Assembly (NCBI GenBank): GCA_938045295.1
Contig: CALINO010000030.1
Coordinates: 1 to 45,494 of the forward strand
Length of the DNA: 45,494 nt
Direction of reading: 5' to 3'
Source of the DNA: an uncultured Arenicella sp.
GTDB lineage: Bacteria; Pseudomonadota; Gammaproteobacteria; Arenicellales; Arenicellaceae
Shown: positions 2,365 through 45,384 of the stretch, piece by piece
Numbering within the stretch: position 1 is the first letter of the stretch
Layout: each line of letters opens with the position of its first letter
Translations under genes and position numbers: made by a program
Notes under the pieces: generated by a model
What the model was told of the DNA's origin: nothing
Database searches by the model: none
What the model saw: the letters and a program-made list of their open reading frames with translations, nothing else

Positions 2365-2769
2365 TGGTGGTATAAAAATCGTTTCGGGTAGATTTATGCT
2401 GAAGCTTCTACGGTTATTTTTGTGCAAATAATGTTAAGAGTCGCGGGGGAGGGCAATCATGCCCGAAGGTTTTTCTCATTCAATGCTGTGCCTGAATTGA
2501 GTGACACTTCTGAGTAAGCGAACCCCTATTTGTTACCCGCTGTAGAGCCGAGCAGTTGATGTATATGCTTCAAGATGTTGCCTCACCTCACAATCAAAGA
2601 GATGTTGATATATCAATATAACATATTGTTGGCGTATTTGTATGTCTGCTTAACTAAGCCGTACTAGTTGCGTGGGTTTATAGTGAATCTAAGCTCAGTG
2701 AGAGAGGAGTGTATTGTGTATAAATCTGCTTTATTAAGTCTAATAAGCCCTGCTCATAAAACACAGCTG
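2365..2769. other. Intergenic region between the hydrolase operon and the cassette array
   Basis: No full gene is visible. A short palindromic AT-rich stretch lies near 2600-2630 (TGATATATCA followed by AACATATTGTT). At 2716 a GTG preceded by GAGAGGAG opens a 24-codon frame that ends at 2790 inside the repeat that follows. It begins YKSALLSLISPAHK and looks like either a tiny gene or the truncated start of a gene cut by the repeat. The promoter of the leftward operon should also be here, but I could not place it confidently. Confidence 0.4.
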
Positions 2770-2892
2770 GCCGTCAGATTAATATATTAGCCAAAACGGC
2801 ATAAATCATTGAATGAAAACAAAAATAAATTTATGCTCCAGCCAAAGCGACAAACAGTTATACCGACATAATTACGGTTAACAAGGCTGTTA
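2770..2892 (+). repeat. Dispersed repeat, copy A (cassette-array left border)
   Basis: About 120 bp closely matching the repeat at 45134-45384. Shared parts include TTAATATATTAGCCAAAACG, a GAATGAAAACAAAAATAAA block, AGCGACAAACAGTTATACCG, and the end TTAACAAGGCTGTTA. It contains an 8-bp stem GCATAAAT (2799-2806) / ATTTATGC (2829-2836). Compared with copy B it lacks about 113 bp lying between two direct repeats of GTTATACCGACAT, as if that segment had been deleted or never gained. Similarity to copy B stops at the final GTTA, which is where an integron recombination point (G^TT) would be. The first cassette gene follows 28 bp later. Confidence 0.85.
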
Positions 2893-2920
2893 TGTATACG
2901 AATTTTGAGTGTAATATAAA

Positions 2921-3196
2921 ATGAATGATTATGAGTTTTATCTGCAAAAATATCTGGAAGTAAAAGATCATTTTTCTGTTTCTGAATTTTTAAACTATGT
3001 TGAACACTATTACCATGAAAGGTTGTCATTCGAAGAACTATTCGACGAATTTCAAGAAAATGGTGTACTAATTCTTGTAGAGGTAAATGGCGAGCCCTTT
3101 TTCCAAAATTCTGAAAAAAGTAATTATGCAGGTGAAGTGAAAGATTACAGTAAAAGTGAATTTTTAAAAGCGTGCAGTAAATCTGCAAATCAATGA
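2921..3196 (+). CDS. Cassette-encoded hypothetical protein, 91 aa
   Basis: A 91-residue acidic soluble protein rich in Glu, Phe and Tyr (starts MNDYEFYLQKYLEVKDHFSV). It contains SEFLNYVEHYYHERLSFEELFDEF-like helices and a GVLILVEVNGEPFF strand segment. No signal peptide, membrane segment or known motif is seen, and I do not recognise the family. The ATG at 2921 follows an AT-rich leader without a strong ribosome binding site. Its stop lies one base before the first attC site, a typical compact cassette arrangement. It is the first gene after repeat copy A. Confidence 0.7.
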   Translation: MNDYEFYLQKYLEVKDHFSVSEFLNYVEHYYHERLSFEELFDEFQENGVLILVEVNGEPFFQNSEKSNYAGEVKDYSKSEFLKACSKSANQ

Positions 3197-3197
3197 A

Positions 3198-3281
3198 ACA
3201 TAACAAGTTTTCAAAGTTCACTCCGCAGCAAGCTGCTGCGCGGGACGCGTTTTCAACGCGCCCCTAGCAAAGGCGTTATAT
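3198..3281 (+). other. attC site 1
   Basis: The left box ACATAAC (3198-3204) pairs with the right box GTTATAT (3275-3281). Between them are strong hairpins: GCAGC-AA-GCTGC, and CGCGTT-TTC-AACGCG flanked by GGG/CCC. Length is 84 bp, within the usual attC range. The cut is expected between G3275 and T3276. It lies directly after the stop codon of the first cassette gene. Confidence 0.8.
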
Positions 3282-3308
3282 GTATTTATTAAAACCTTGG
3301 AATAAAAA

Positions 3309-3476
3309 ATGGTAAAACCAATTTTTGAATTATTTATCGGATGTTTCCTTATCTATGTAGGTATAAAGGATATAGGGCTGCTCTCAATAGCCTTAGGTGT
3401 CATTTTGATAGTTTTTAGTTTGGACGATTTCTATTACATGAAAAACGGTAAAAGAATATTTGGTTCGCCGGATTAA
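3309..3476 (+). CDS. Cassette-encoded small membrane protein, 55 aa
   Basis: A 55-codon frame with a plausible ribosome binding site (GGA about 7 bases before ATG). The product begins MVKPIFELFIGCFLIYVGIK and continues with LLSIALGVILIVFSL, giving two closely spaced hydrophobic helices (about residues 5-19 and 23-38). A polar tail follows (DDFYYMKNGKRIFGSPD). It is probably a two-helix hairpin in the inner membrane. Family not recognised. It fills cassette 2, between attC sites 1 and 2. Confidence 0.65.
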   Translation: MVKPIFELFIGCFLIYVGIKDIGLLSIALGVILIVFSLDDFYYMKNGKRIFGSPD

Positions 3477-3507
3477 GCAATTTGAATAGGCCACGAAATA
3501 TAAAAAC

Positions 3508-3582
3508 ATGTAACAAGAAAGGGTATTTCGCCCTACGGGCTGGACGCGCACTTCGCGTGCGTCCGTACCTTTGGCGTTATGT
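3508..3582 (+). other. attC site 2
   Basis: The left box ATGTAAC (3508-3514) and the right box GTTATGT (3576-3582) frame a folded spacer with stems GCCC-TAC-GGGC and GGACGC/GCGTCC. Length 75 bp. The right end (GGCGTTATGTGTAT) is nearly the same as the right end of repeat copy A (GGCTGTTATGTAT), which ties that repeat to the recombination system. Confidence 0.8.
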
Positions 3583-3625
3583 GTATCGAAGAAAGTAGTA
3601 AATTAAAAGGTAGTTTAGAACAATT

Positions 3626-3805
3626 ATGAACCAAGCGAGCAATACGAGCACGACATACAACGAAGAGAAATCCAGTTGTAGCAACACAAGTTGTTGTCCA
3701 CCTAAAGACACGACTATACGTAACACATCAAAAGTAGGTAGAAATGAACCTTGCCCGTGTGGCAGTGAGCGAAAATACAAGAAGTGTTGTGGCAAAAACA
3801 CCTAA
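3626..3805 (+). CDS. Cassette-encoded SEC-C zinc-motif mini-protein, 59 aa
   Basis: The C-terminal third is a clear SEC-C motif ([18 protein letters not shown], residues 39-56) with the CxC...CC zinc ligands. The N-terminal 37 residues are polar, rich in Asn, Ser and Thr, and contain an extra Cys cluster (C18, C23, C24). SEC-C motifs occur at the end of SecA, where they bind zinc and contact SecB and ribosomes, and in many small unrelated proteins. This one has no other domain. The stop codon (TAA 3803-3805) lies inside the left box of attC site 3, typical for a cassette gene. The ribosome binding site is weak. Confidence 0.75.
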
Positions 3806-3867
3806 CAATAATAAAAACTGTCATTCAGTGAGTTCATTCTTTCGCGCCCGTTTCATGAGCGTTAGGG
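3800..3867 (+). other. attC site 3
   Basis: The left box ACCTAAC (3800-3806) and the right box GTTAGGG (3861-3867) frame a 68-bp site. The internal spacer folds less clearly than sites 1 and 2. It overlaps the stop codon of the SEC-C gene. The right end CGTTAGGG is closest to the integron consensus. Confidence 0.7.
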
Positions 3868-3875
3868 AAATAAAC

Positions 3876-3956
3876 ATGCAAAAAATCATTGTTTTTACCT
3901 TGGGTGTCGTTACAGCTGTAATAGTGCTTTGTCGCTCAACATATGAAATTTTTTAA
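3876..3956 (+). CDS. Cassette-encoded single-helix peptide, 26 aa
   Basis: A 26-codon frame starting 8 bases after attC site 3, preceded by AGGGAAATAAAC, which includes a usable ribosome binding site. The product (MQKIIVFTLGVVTAVIVLCR, then STYEIF) is one hydrophobic helix with a positively charged start and a short tail, like a small membrane peptide or toxin-like peptide. Its stop runs directly into repeat copy C. It is short enough to be chance, but position, start signal and composition support it. Confidence 0.45.
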   Translation: MQKIIVFTLGVVTAVIVLCRSTYEIF

Positions 3957-4002
3957 TCCGATATTTGTTGTGCCGAAATAATGATGGTTGACCAGTCTGC
4001 TA
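3953..4002 (+). repeat. Dispersed repeat, diverged copy C (cassette-array right border)
   Basis: Fifty bases align without gaps to the last 50 bases of copy B (45335-45384), with 41 identical positions by eye. It begins TTAATCCGATATTTGTTGTG and ends GACCAGTCTGCTA, where the better copies have AACAAGGCTGTTA. The loss of the AAC and GTT cores suggests the site no longer works. It lies immediately after the last cassette gene. Confidence 0.7.
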
Positions 4003-4113
4003 TATGTGCTATCAAGGAAAAAACTGAAAAAAATAATTAATAAAATTAAGTCGACCTAATTCGAGATGACTGTGTGCTTACCCAACCCAATAGCCCTTAC
4101 TGTTTTCAGCAAT

Positions 4114-7150: not shown

Positions 7151-8557
7151 ATGGAAGTAGTCAATTTTATTAATAATATTCTTTGGGGTTCAGGCCAAGT
7201 ATTAATTTATTTACTGTTTGCGGTGGGTTTGTGGTTTTCTTGGAAGCTGGCGGCTATTCAGTTTTCGGGTTTTGCTCACATGTTGAGTTTGCTTGGCCGT
7301 AAAAAGGCCGATGACCACAGCGGCATTAGTTCTTTTCAAGCCTTGTGCACCAGTTTGTCGGCTAGAGTCGGTACCGGTAATTTGGCCGGTGTGGCGGTGG
7401 CCATTTCACTGGGCGGCAGCGGTGCAATATTTTGGATGTGGTTTATTGCGCTGATTGGCATGGCAACTGGGTTTGCTGAAAGTCTGTTAGGTCAAGTGTA
7501 TAAGGTTCGAGACGGTCATGGTGAATACCGTGGTGGGCCGGCTTATTACATTAATATGGGCTTGAAAAAGCCTTGGTTTGCGGTGCTTTTTGCGGTGTGT
7601 ATTTTCATGGGCTATGGGTTGATTTTTAGCGCCATGCAAGCCAATACCATTGCCGATTCTTTAAATCACGCGTATGGGGTAAAGCCCCTTATATCCGGCG
7701 TGTTTATTACATTTGTGGCTGGGGTGATTGTATTAGGTGGGTTTAAGGCCATTGCGCGTTTTGCTGCTTTGGTGGTGCCTGTTATGGGTGGTTTATACAT
7801 CATTGTGGCGTTGACGGTGGTCGCTTTAAATATGGCTGATGTGCCGGCCATGTTGGCGAATATCATTACCTCTGCGTTTGGTTCGCAAGAAGCTGGCGCT
7901 GGTGCGCTTGGTGCGGCCATTAAAAATGGTGTTCAACGAGGTCTGTATTCAAACGAAGCGGGTTCGGGCAGTGCCCCACAAGCGGCGGCGGCGGCGGCGC
8001 CAAACCCTAATCACCCAGCTTCTCAAGGTTTTATACAAATGTTTGGGGTGTTTTTTGACACCATCATTTTGTGCTCGTGCACCGCGTTTATCATTTTGCT
8101 GGGTGGCGGTGAAATGACGGGGCAAATGGAGGGCATTCGTTTAACGCAAAATGCCATGAGCGTGCATTTTGGCGCTTACGGCATGTATTTGGTCTCGTTA
8201 ATGATCACCTTGTTTGCCTTTACCTCTGTGGTTGCGAATTACGCTTATGCTGAAAGTAATCTGTCGATCTTAAGATTAGACAGCAAGCTGGGTAGGGCGT
8301 GTTACACCGCCGCCTATTTGGTAATGGTGATGTGGGGGGCAACGGCGTCGCTGAAAGAAGCATGGAGCTTGGCCGACATGGCGTTGGGGTTAATGACGGT
8401 GGTGAATGTCGCCGCCTTGTTTATGCTTACACCGACCATCGTCAATGTGTGTAACGACTATAAAGAAAAACGCAATTCGGGCGGTAACATTGATTTCAGT
8501 GTTAGCGATTGCCAAATTCAAGGAACGACCAACTCACAAGTTTGGAAGAGCCGCTAG
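7151..8557 (+). CDS. Amino-acid:cation symporter, AGCS family (alanine/glycine type)
   Basis: A 468-residue inner-membrane carrier with about ten hydrophobic segments. Family signatures are clear: SSFQALCTSLSARVGTGNLA near residues 59-78, GGPAYYI near 128, and SNEAGSGSAPQAAAAA near 263. AGCS (DagA/AlsT) carriers take up alanine, glycine or glutamine with sodium or protons. Length fits the family. The ATG at 7151 has only a weak GGGA site upstream. The gene stands alone after the rplI terminator and converges on the next gene, with the stops one base apart. The C-terminal 30 residues are polar and variable. The exact amino acid cannot be told from sequence. Confidence 0.92.
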   Translation: MEVVNFINNILWGSGQVLIYLLFAVGLWFSWKLAAIQFSGFAHMLSLLGRKKADDHSGISSFQALCTSLSARVGTGNLAGVAVAISLGGSGAIFWMWFIALIGMATGFAESLLGQVYKVRDGHGEYRGGPAYYINMGLKKPWFAVLFAVCIFMGYGLIFSAMQANTIADSLNHAYGVKPLISGVFITFVAGVIVLGGFKAIARFAALVVPVMGGLYIIVALTVVALNMADVPAMLANIITSAFGSQEAGAGALGAAIKNGVQRGLYSNEAGSGSAPQAAAAAAPNPNHPASQGFIQMFGVFFDTIILCSCTAFIILLGGGEMTGQMEGIRLTQNAMSVHFGAYGMYLVSLMITLFAFTSVVANYAYAESNLSILRLDSKLGRACYTAAYLVMVMWGATASLKEAWSLADMALGLMTVVNVAALFMLTPTIVNVCNDYKEKRNSGGNIDFSVSDCQIQGTTNSQVWKSR

Positions 8558-8558
8558 T

Positions 8559-9041
8559 TTAGCGCTGCTTTCTAGCGCAATGCTTTTTCATCGACAGAAT
8601 GATGGCGCTTTTTTTGGCCGCTTTGCTTGGGCTTTTTGCTGCCTTTTGCGCCGTCTTTGATGCTGGGTTTTGCGTTGCAATTAGGTGTGGAAAGCGGGCA
8701 TTGATGTGCCATGCTATTTCTTCCAGCATTTCAATGTCGTACAGGTCATCTAAGCCGTTGTTGCGTAGCTGATAGGCGGCTTCGCCAAGTAGGTCTAAAA
8801 CGTGGTTTAGATCTATGGATTGCTTCAGCGAACCGGATTTGTTTTTCAGGCTGTCGAGAATGATCTTTTTTAAAAAATCAGGGTGAACGGCGGTGGCGTT
8901 AAACAGTTCTTTCAGTCGTTTTGCTTGCGCGTTTATGGATAAACGGTGCGCGCCAATTTCAGCGGCAATAATTAACCAAAATGCAAGAAACTCTGGCGGT
9001 TTACCGCTTCGGCTTTGGTCTTGGTTGTGTCGTTTACTCAT
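8559..9041 (-). CDS. Hypothetical protein, 160 aa, Lys/Ala-rich C-terminus
   Basis: Not recognised. Residues 1-115 are mostly helical (PEFLAFWLIIAAEIGAHRLS, QSIDLNHVLDLLGEAAYQL, LYDIEMLEEIAWHI), without signal peptide or clear membrane segment. The last 35 residues are a basic tail rich in Lys, Ala and Ser (SKTAQKAAKSPSKAAKKS), like nucleic-acid-binding tails of some bacterial proteins. The ATG at 9041 has a weak AAAGA site. It converges with the symporter gene and diverges from asd. Confidence 0.65.
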   Translation of the reverse strand: MSKRHNQDQSRSGKPPEFLAFWLIIAAEIGAHRLSINAQAKRLKELFNATAVHPDFLKKIILDSLKNKSGSLKQSIDLNHVLDLLGEAAYQLRNNGLDDLYDIEMLEEIAWHINARFPHLIATQNPASKTAQKAAKSPSKAAKKSAIILSMKKHCARKQR

Positions 9042-44031: not shown

Positions 44032-45072
44032 ATGAGCTTAGATAACCGCGCTGAAAATGTACTAAAGAACTTGGTTGAAACCTACATTGAAGAAGGTCAA
44101 CCAGTCGGGTCTCGCACGCTTTCAAAACTACCAGAACTGGGCGTTAGCTCAGCAACGGTGCGCAACGTCATGGCCGATTTAGAAGAGTTGGGTTTAATTA
44201 CCGCGCCTCACACTTCCGCTGGGCGTATTCCAACCGTGCAAGGTTATCGGCTGTTTGTTGACAGCATGATCAGAGCCACCGAGCCCACCAAAGAAGCCGT
44301 TTCAGAGCTCACTCACCGTTTTGAAGGCGAATCTGACCCTGAAAAATTGATTGCGCACGCATCAGACGTATTGTCAGAGCTAACTCAATTTGCCGGCATG
44401 GTGGTGCTGCCGAATCAATCAGTAACACGGTTTCACCAATTAGAATTCATGCGCCTTTCTAAAACCCGCGTGCTTGCTATTTTAGTGACCGAAGACGGGC
44501 GAGTGCAAAACAGAGTGTTGTCGTCGGCGGAAGGCTTTAGCGAGTCTGAATTAGTGCAAGCGGCCAACTTCTTTAATCATCGATACAAAGGCAACACCTT
44601 ACAAGACGTGCGCCGTTTGCTCATTCAAGACATGCAGACCGACAACGATGAAATGCACCGCATTAACCAGTCGGCCATGCAGGCAGCCACCCAAGTGATC
44701 TCCGAAGAAGACGAAAACTCGCAATCAGATGTGGTGGTCAGTGGCGAACAAAAGCTCTTAGGCGTGCCTGATCTGTGCCAAATTCAAACCCTGCAAAAAT
44801 TGTTCGATGCGTTCAAAACCAAACGCGACTTGCTTGATTTGCTTGATCGCAGCATGAAAGCCGAAGGCGTCAGCGTGTTTATTGGCGAAGAATCAGGCTT
44901 CAGCGCGTTAGGCGAGTGCAGCGTTATAGCCAGCCCTTACGCGGTTGATGGCAAAGTCATTGGCACCCTCGGCGTAATAGGCCCAACCAGAATGGACTAT
45001 GACTCGGTCATTTCGGTGGTTGATATTACCTCTAAACTGCTTTCTCAAGCGTTGTCATCAAGGCCAAGTTAA
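44032..45072 (+). CDS. hrcA: Heat-inducible transcription repressor HrcA
   Basis: A 346-residue repressor with an N-terminal winged-helix DNA-binding domain (ENVLKNLVETYIEEGQPVGS, SATVRNVMADLEELGLI, HTSAGRIPTVQGYRLFVDSM) and a GAF-like effector domain ending GTLGVIGPTRMDYDSVISVV. HrcA represses dnaK/groE operons through CIRCE and needs GroEL. It normally precedes grpE-dnaK; here a repeat region follows and no grpE is within the window. Confidence 0.94.
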   Translation: MSLDNRAENVLKNLVETYIEEGQPVGSRTLSKLPELGVSSATVRNVMADLEELGLITAPHTSAGRIPTVQGYRLFVDSMIRATEPTKEAVSELTHRFEGESDPEKLIAHASDVLSELTQFAGMVVLPNQSVTRFHQLEFMRLSKTRVLAILVTEDGRVQNRVLSSAEGFSESELVQAANFFNHRYKGNTLQDVRRLLIQDMQTDNDEMHRINQSAMQAATQVISEEDENSQSDVVVSGEQKLLGVPDLCQIQTLQKLFDAFKTKRDLLDLLDRSMKAEGVSVFIGEESGFSALGECSVIASPYAVDGKVIGTLGVIGPTRMDYDSVISVVDITSKLLSQALSSRPS

Positions 45073-45133: not shown

Positions 45134-45384
45134 GCCGACGGTCGGGTTAATATATTAGCCAAAACGGCATAAGTGATTGAATGAAAACAAAAATAAACTT
45201 ATGCTCCGACAAAAGCGACAAACAGTTATACCGACATTATGTCGGTTTTTATGGAAGAAAAAGTTTTAGAAATGAATTCAAGTTATTGTTTTAAAAAAGG
45301 AAAAAAAGCCGATTTCCCATGTCGGTATAATATATTAATCCGACATTTGTTATACCGACATAATGACGGTTAACAAGGCTGTTA
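45134..45384 (+). repeat. Dispersed repeat, copy B (full-length)
   Basis: A 251-bp version of the repeat that begins the cassette array. It starts with CCGACGGTCGG, then TTAATATATTAGCCAAAACG, and the stem GCATAAGT (45167-45174) / ACTTATGC (45197-45204). It has a CCGACAT-T-ATGTCGG hairpin (45231-45245), an AT-rich middle, a second palindrome around 45330-45346 built on TAATATATTA between GTCGG and CCGAC, and the end TTAACAAGGCTGTTA. GTTATACCGACAT occurs twice in direct orientation (45225-45237 and 45349-45361). No gene is evident inside. Confidence 0.85.

Follow-up and report, generated by a model that had tools for sequence, protein, structure and literature searches.

A repeat resembling an attI site heads cassette arrays without a neighbouring integrase gene in an uncultured Arenicella

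The window analysed here is the complete stretch of 45,494 nucleotides forming contig CALINO010000030.1 (C30) of an uncultured Arenicella sp., and its subject is a repeat that directly precedes an array of gene cassettes and recurs near the far end of the contig. With a probability of roughly 80%, we interpret this repeat as an attI-type site, that is, the 3' end of an element of ~270 bp which is present at several chromosomal places without an integrase gene and would work, now or formerly, in trans. The preliminary description had left a choice between a collapsed or decayed attC and an attI-like element used for insertion. The latter is supported by our analysis, as the element heads three arrays and its core is exact in four copies.

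Results and Discussion

The 15-mer TTAACAAGGCTGTTA occupies positions 2878–2892 (copy A) and 45370–45384 (copy B), in agreement with the repeat end TTAACAAGGCTGTTAT initially described for the array start. A scan of the window with up to two mismatches gave 2 matches compared to 0.10 expected from shuffled sequences, and 2 of 100 shuffles also gave 2. In the whole source genome (G000; 2,994,915 bases, 92 contigs, 99.4% complete; close to Arenicella according to the relatives of its hrcA) four matches with at most one mismatch were found, all of them exact, and a backwards-read control gave one. Next to copies A and B they are located at C10:6400–6414 and C25:2268–2282, and all four constitute the right (3') end of one ~270-bp element, here called type II. 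The C10 and C25 elements are 97% identical, B and C10 95%, A and C10 88–90%. Copy A, which begins at about 2743 and not at 2770 as originally given, is devoid of ~120 internal bp present in the other three and has ~55 bp of additional upstream sequence in common with the C10 copy.

Copies A and B are alike in two blocks, the first of 115 bp (88% identity) and the second of 36 bp (97%) up to position 2892. The bases just past this position differ, so that identity indeed stops at the GTTA. The right end of the repeat reads TTAACAAGGCTG/TTA, with the slash marking the crossover, and is followed by cassettes. Similarly, all four type II copies are constant up to G/TTA and differ from there on, with cassettes beginning at TTA, in support of the proposed recombination point. 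Cassettes with attC were detected downstream of the C30 copy A, C10 and C25 copies, so that three of four copies head arrays; behind copy B the contig ends after 110 bp. The attC sites were located with a covariance model built from 18 training sites, which had been selected by pattern and by eye from G000, G018 and five further genomes of the family. Two stricter finders (pattern and folding) proved too strict, and a third supplied the training sites; the attC at 3198 and 3508 belong to these and match by construction. With these two sites, a weak one at 3800 and no integrase-family match on C30, the array falls under the definition of a cluster of attC sites lacking integron-integrases (CALIN; at least two attC, no intI nearby).

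The local attC sites begin with TAACAAG and end with GGCG/TTA, as correctly described before, and the repeat resembles two such ends joined. This resemblance arises because inverted integrase boxes also occur as a pair in an attI site, where no variable stem separates them. Since the repeat stands before, not after, the first cassette and the covariance model yields no match at 2878–2892 or 45370–45384 (E ≤ 1), we conclude that it is not an attC; the attC hairpin with its R'', L'', L' and R' boxes at a cassette 3' end is not found there. Given that four copies keep this end exactly, an attC that has decayed or lost its stem is hardly tenable despite the similar ends. Adjacency to the integrase gene intI is likewise not found for type II, IntI similarity (E ≤ 1e-3) being absent within 1510 bp upstream of all four copies. 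Attachment sites with related ends are, however, linked to intI in the relatives G010, G014 and G017, and comparable cores of relatives read TAATAAAACTG/TTA and TAACAAGCTG/TTA. These intI-linked ends also speak against a non-autonomous transposon, such as a miniature inverted-repeat transposable element, inserting by chance at array heads. Repeats of ~270 bp that are dispersed, contain palindromes and have a common left end would suit such an element, but one end lies exactly at the cassette crossover and no matching inverted ends were recognised by eye in the alignment, so that this origin appears improbable.

The source genome possesses one complete intI, on C1 (413.6 bits, cut-off 265), whose own attI ends with CTAATAAGCTG/TTA and is called type I. 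The region in front of this attI has further copies on C39 (81% over 291 bp), C86 (86.5% over 289 bp) and C83 (98% over the last 60 bp), all of them with attC downstream, that of C83 being weak (E 0.02 in one scan, 0.56 in another). No IntI similarity (E ≤ 1e-3) was detected within 1510 bp upstream of these three copies, and tblastn for intI beside all seven integrase-less copies of the genome gave nothing significant. Altogether eight attI-type sites, four of each type, are accompanied by one complete intI, and seven lack an adjacent integrase. Arrays on C33, C68, C70 and C3 run to contig ends; their starts lie outside this count. Type II elements as copies of the C1 attI were considered and rejected, the sequence being different. 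Among 21 family genomes, G000 included, the type II element was found in G000 and G018, the latter belonging to another genus. The G018 copy is 67% identical, follows metK, ends with AATAAAACTG/TTAGG and also leads directly into an attC-bearing cassette; a search for intI in this genome (93% complete) gave none at E ≤ 1e-40.

The same 21 draft genomes were surveyed with patterns taken from known copies, a procedure that misses other attI types; contig ends moreover hide array starts, and G004 is a draft of 380 contigs with 5% contamination. An intI match (E ≤ 1e-40) occurs in 13 of the 21 genomes. Most IntI proteins fall into two clades, with identities of 61–83% within clade 1, 46–57% within clade 2 and 38–44% between them, the G006 protein being an outlier. 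Where the attI is on the contig, it ends with AATAAGCTG/TTA or a close variant in clade 1 and with AAAACTG/TTA (three) or TTAGCTG/TTA (one) in clade 2. The core TAATAAGCTGTTA gave 28 matches (reversed control 6) and GRTAAYAAARCTGTTA gave 18 (reversed control 2), i.e. 46 compared to 8, with 13 matched positions in the fragmented G004 draft. Seven matches have less than 300 bp of downstream DNA, leaving 39 testable ones, and at 31 of these a same-strand attC follows at 249–883 bp (threshold E ≤ 0.5 for 115 kb); attC sites of four of these loci (L168, L170, L171, L180) had also been used in model training. Where the last 60 bp are similar to those of another copy (34 sites), 30 have an attC; of the five sites similar to none (identity ≤ 0.53), one has an attC (L207). 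A complete intI adjoins five of the 31 attC-positive sites (L168, L170, L171, L180, L193).

The reverse survey started from 27 array starts among the matches listed, nine of which have less than 600 bp upstream. A CTG/TTA core of type I, type II or a third type is present at 16 of the 18 usable starts; among these 16, L162 is intI-linked and L135 has a partial intI at the contig end. The other two are L145, with a mutated core found by homology, and L131, with a core 2.3 kb upstream. The third attI-like type, CTAATAGG..CCTATTAA..CCGCTG/TTA with a near variant, heads two arrays, L157 (G010:C253) and L159 (G014:C185). An exact CTGT-N8-ACAG, the form of a LexA box (PMC3108266), precedes the crossover by 285–289 bp at 15 type I sites and by 301 bp at one more, and ten of these 16 sites are without a complete intI. 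At the other 43 of 59 sites, all type II sites among them, the exact box is absent from the 380 bp scanned.

Two comparisons suggest that orphan sites, i.e. those without a complete adjoining intI, are or were in use. In G017 one cassette of ~330 bp occupies the first place at two sites (93%), the type II attI C1:1238651, whose adjoining intI is only a pseudogene, and the type I attI of C4, which is linked to intI. The homology starts exactly at TTA and stops at the attC crossover, and G001 carries the same cassette in second place (95% and 92% to the two). As G017 contains complete integrases of both clades, the shared cassette is no proof of cross-recognition. In the second case, G004:C272:47817 and G007:C153 have flank and attI in common (71% over 1528 bp, up to 3 bp beyond the crossover), with no IntI similarity upstream of either. 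Two extra whole cassettes are present in G004 at CTG/TTA, before one that resembles the first cassette of G007 (76% over 157 bp); the G007 contig ends 177 bp past its attI. Each genome has a clade-1 intI elsewhere, and the difference suggests a gain in G004 or a loss in G007, most simply at an attI that was already without intI.

For the source genome, an integron integrase would bind and cut at the repeat end, inserting circular cassettes at CTG/TTA. We infer that the C1 enzyme, as the only complete integrase of the genome, would serve all eight sites; orphan attI would work, or would have worked, in trans, and one integrase may fill several cassette stores around the chromosome.

An alternative agrees on the identity of the sites and differs on whether they still work. 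Whole integrons could have been duplicated or acquired and intI then lost, leaving orphan attI as dead scars. This fits the six orphan sites that retain adjoining intI pieces, e.g. a stretch of 162 amino acids with a stop at G017:C1:1238651, and a seventh, G016:C11:949, with a partial intI at the contig end that is possibly intact beyond it. By eye, C39 and two G001 copies (C11, C5) also keep the first intI codons, although tblastn gave nothing at E ≤ 1e-3. Most orphan sites, on the other hand, have no intI remnant, the core and the spacing from box to attI are conserved, and the cassette difference between G004 and G007 lies exactly at an orphan site where both are without intI. We regard the scars as possible but do not favour them.

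How the sites spread may further involve the integrase itself. On G004:C246, attI sites lie inside an array, where two units without an open reading frame (ORF) run from an attC crossover (left) to an attI crossover (right); they end at 7827 (core mutated) and at 8618. Movement of attI by integrase is possible in view of these units, of window unit 3862–3999, and of the report that IntI1 moves attI-ended cassettes (PMC12901181). On a more speculative note, which we consider unlikely, attI itself could be mobile: G/TTA-bounded units ending in attI would be excised as circles and re-inserted by the integrase, seeding landing sites and yielding a distributed, self-multiplying integron fed by one integrase. 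Many type I units would then also carry the LexA-like box ~287 bp from the crossover.

In the type I attI-region tree, the nearest neighbour belongs to the same genome for 24 of 29 copies (mean 4.2 and maximum 13 in 5000 label shuffles), and for type II the count is 14 of 17 (mean 3.0, maximum 10). Counted were copies from genomes with more than one copy; G016:C11:949 was placed in the type I set though type II-like, and six sites without upstream likeness were left out, one being a minimal attI followed by a cassette (G004:C357). G001 harbours eight attI copies in two families, one of which comprises five copies 79–88% alike over 223–303 bp. From the same-genome neighbours and the G001 families it appears that attI copies arise, or are kept alike, within each lineage. 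Apart from flanks shared via intI, one orphan-site pair has an upstream flank in common between genomes (tblastx E ≤ 1e-8).

Several observations weigh against a trans-acting attI-type site. The four type II copies of G000 have no cognate (clade 2) integrase in the assembly, no cassette change was observed at them, and their cassettes could be relics of a lost integrase. Over the whole element, their similarity to an intI-linked attI is weak (nhmmer E 0.03, G014) and otherwise confined to the last ~35 bp, and the left part of the element, with CCGAC palindromes and a terminator-like hairpin, falls outside this explanation. The core is not a strict GTTRRRY, the copies reading GTTATGT, GTTATGA and GTTAGAA; similar endings occur at some local attC sites (GTTATAT, GTTATGT). 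The training sites of the attC model came from these same genomes and included those behind the C30 copy A, C10, C25 and G018 copies. Finally, eight of the 39 testable core matches have no attC. Four of these are chance-like, with no upstream likeness, and four look like real attI: L182, L197 and L200, at contig ends or an N run, and L202, where an attC follows 2.3 kb further on.

Features of the Window

The coordinates are collected in Table 1.

Table 1. Features of the window around the putative attI elements (all on the forward strand).
Feature	Position	Strand	Evidence
Putative type II attI element, copy A, with ~120-bp internal deletion; crossover G2889/T2890	2743..2892	+	BLAST to C10 copy: 2743–2879 (90%), 2857–2894 (97%); nhmmer
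Imperfect inverted repeat ACCGACATAATTACGGT directly before the core	2862..2878	+	sequence; 59-site comparison
Putative attI core TAACAAGGCTG/TTA	2879..2892	+	exact in four G000 copies
Cassette 1: ORF of 91 amino acids, 2921–3196, no Pfam match; attC 3198–3281	2890..3275	+	attC covariance model
Cassette 2: ORF of 55 amino acids, 3309–3476, no Pfam match; attC 3508–3582	3276..3576	+	attC covariance model
Cassette 3: SEC-C motif protein of 59 amino acids, 3626–3805; weak attC 3800–3867	3577..3861	+	attC covariance model, E 0.007
Last array unit: ORF of ~26 amino acids (by eye), then decayed right end of type II attI element, 3948–4004, replacing attC	3862..3999	+	nhmmer E 8.7e-6; BLAST 81% over 57 bp, E 9e-9
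hrcA, gene preceding copy B	44032..45072	+	NCBIfam TIGR00331, 333 bits
Putative type II attI element, copy B; crossover G45381/T45382	45128..45384	+	55 bp past hrcA stop codon

The cassettes behind copy A thus span 2890–3861. Where copy A has the imperfect inverted repeat, several other type II copies show CCGACA..TGTCGG. A perfect palindrome before the core was rejected as a general rule (mean arm 4.5 compared to 3.8 in the flanks, 59 sites, a weak difference), and several type II copies have arms of 6–7 bp. At the left end of the element (window 2743–2790 and other copies), one frame gives LISxAHKKQPTVGLIY* or a similar reading in several copies, two of which by eye also have AGGAG and GTG upstream; coding and chance are both possible. 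Folding as RNA is better than for shuffles in the type II element L001:1499–1774 (minus strand; z −4.3) and its G018 homolog (−2.1), perhaps due to the CCGAC palindromes. Rfam gave no match at the gathering score for six loci, a sigma-70-like promoter was not found at copy B (0 found, 1.0 expected), and tRNA-specific insertion was discarded, a tRNA lying just upstream at three of 40 loci scanned (G001:C1:111k, G001:C5, G000:C86; part of the attI loci).

In two relatives (L016, L023) the gene behind hrcA resembles C33:945–2120, and no element intervenes; comparison of the region yielded no exact insertion boundary. Since the C33 gene, presumably a relative of saccharopine dehydrogenase, lies at the distal end of an array, C33 probably carries the opposite end of the copy B array. 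Several arrays have attC stems interrupted by one and the same insertion-sequence-like end (GATCTGATACCACTTTAGTAG...), namely at L096:10460–10560 (C1), the C25 start and the C83 and C86 ends. It probably causes contig breaks and suggests an attC-targeting element. Genes at L006:4120–5094 and on C33, inside or adjoining cassette arrays, resemble those of REP-type (Y1) transposases.

Comparison with Known Systems

A typical integron has a single attI in the vicinity of its integrase gene (PMC9024848), whereas G000 has eight attI-type sites, seven of them without neighbouring integrase. In the titles and abstract openings of open-licence PMC literature, no description of several attI copies in one chromosome was found. 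IntegronFinder 2.0 is stated to detect no attI outside class 1 (PMC9024848), and searches of this kind will miss such sites. Genomes with eight attI-type sites, or 13 matched positions in the case of G004, and one or two complete integrase genes depart from the description of integrons as one platform with one attI beside its integrase.

With attI1, attI2 and the Vibrio attIA the studied elements have in common the position at the array head, the G/TTA crossover and a short A-rich core. The minimal attI2 end, printed as AATAAAATG/TTRRRY in PMC12901181, resembles the AATAAAACTG/TTA described above. Delta-attI-type gene cassettes end in an attI piece instead of attC and are excised and inserted by IntI1 (PMC12901181). 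The window unit 3862–3999, a candidate of this type with a mutated core, and the ORF-less G004:C246 units have the same form; the known cassettes sit in class 1 and 2 mobile integrons, in contrast to the studied attI elements at many chromosomal loci. Secondary attG sites are described as neither attC nor attI (PMC12444791). Cassettes away from the integron are common to both, but the sites studied here differ as close attI copies.

The CALIN label fits the arrays on C30, C10, C25, C39 and C86. A functional IntI is said to be able to mobilize CALINs in trans, and in about half of the Xanthomonas genomes some CALINs lie away from intI (PMC12444791). Compared to these, the studied arrays start with an attI copy. 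Orphan attI sites offer another origin of CALINs, as new platforms and not only as degraded integrons, and make it a testable question whether integrase-less arrays still gain cassettes.
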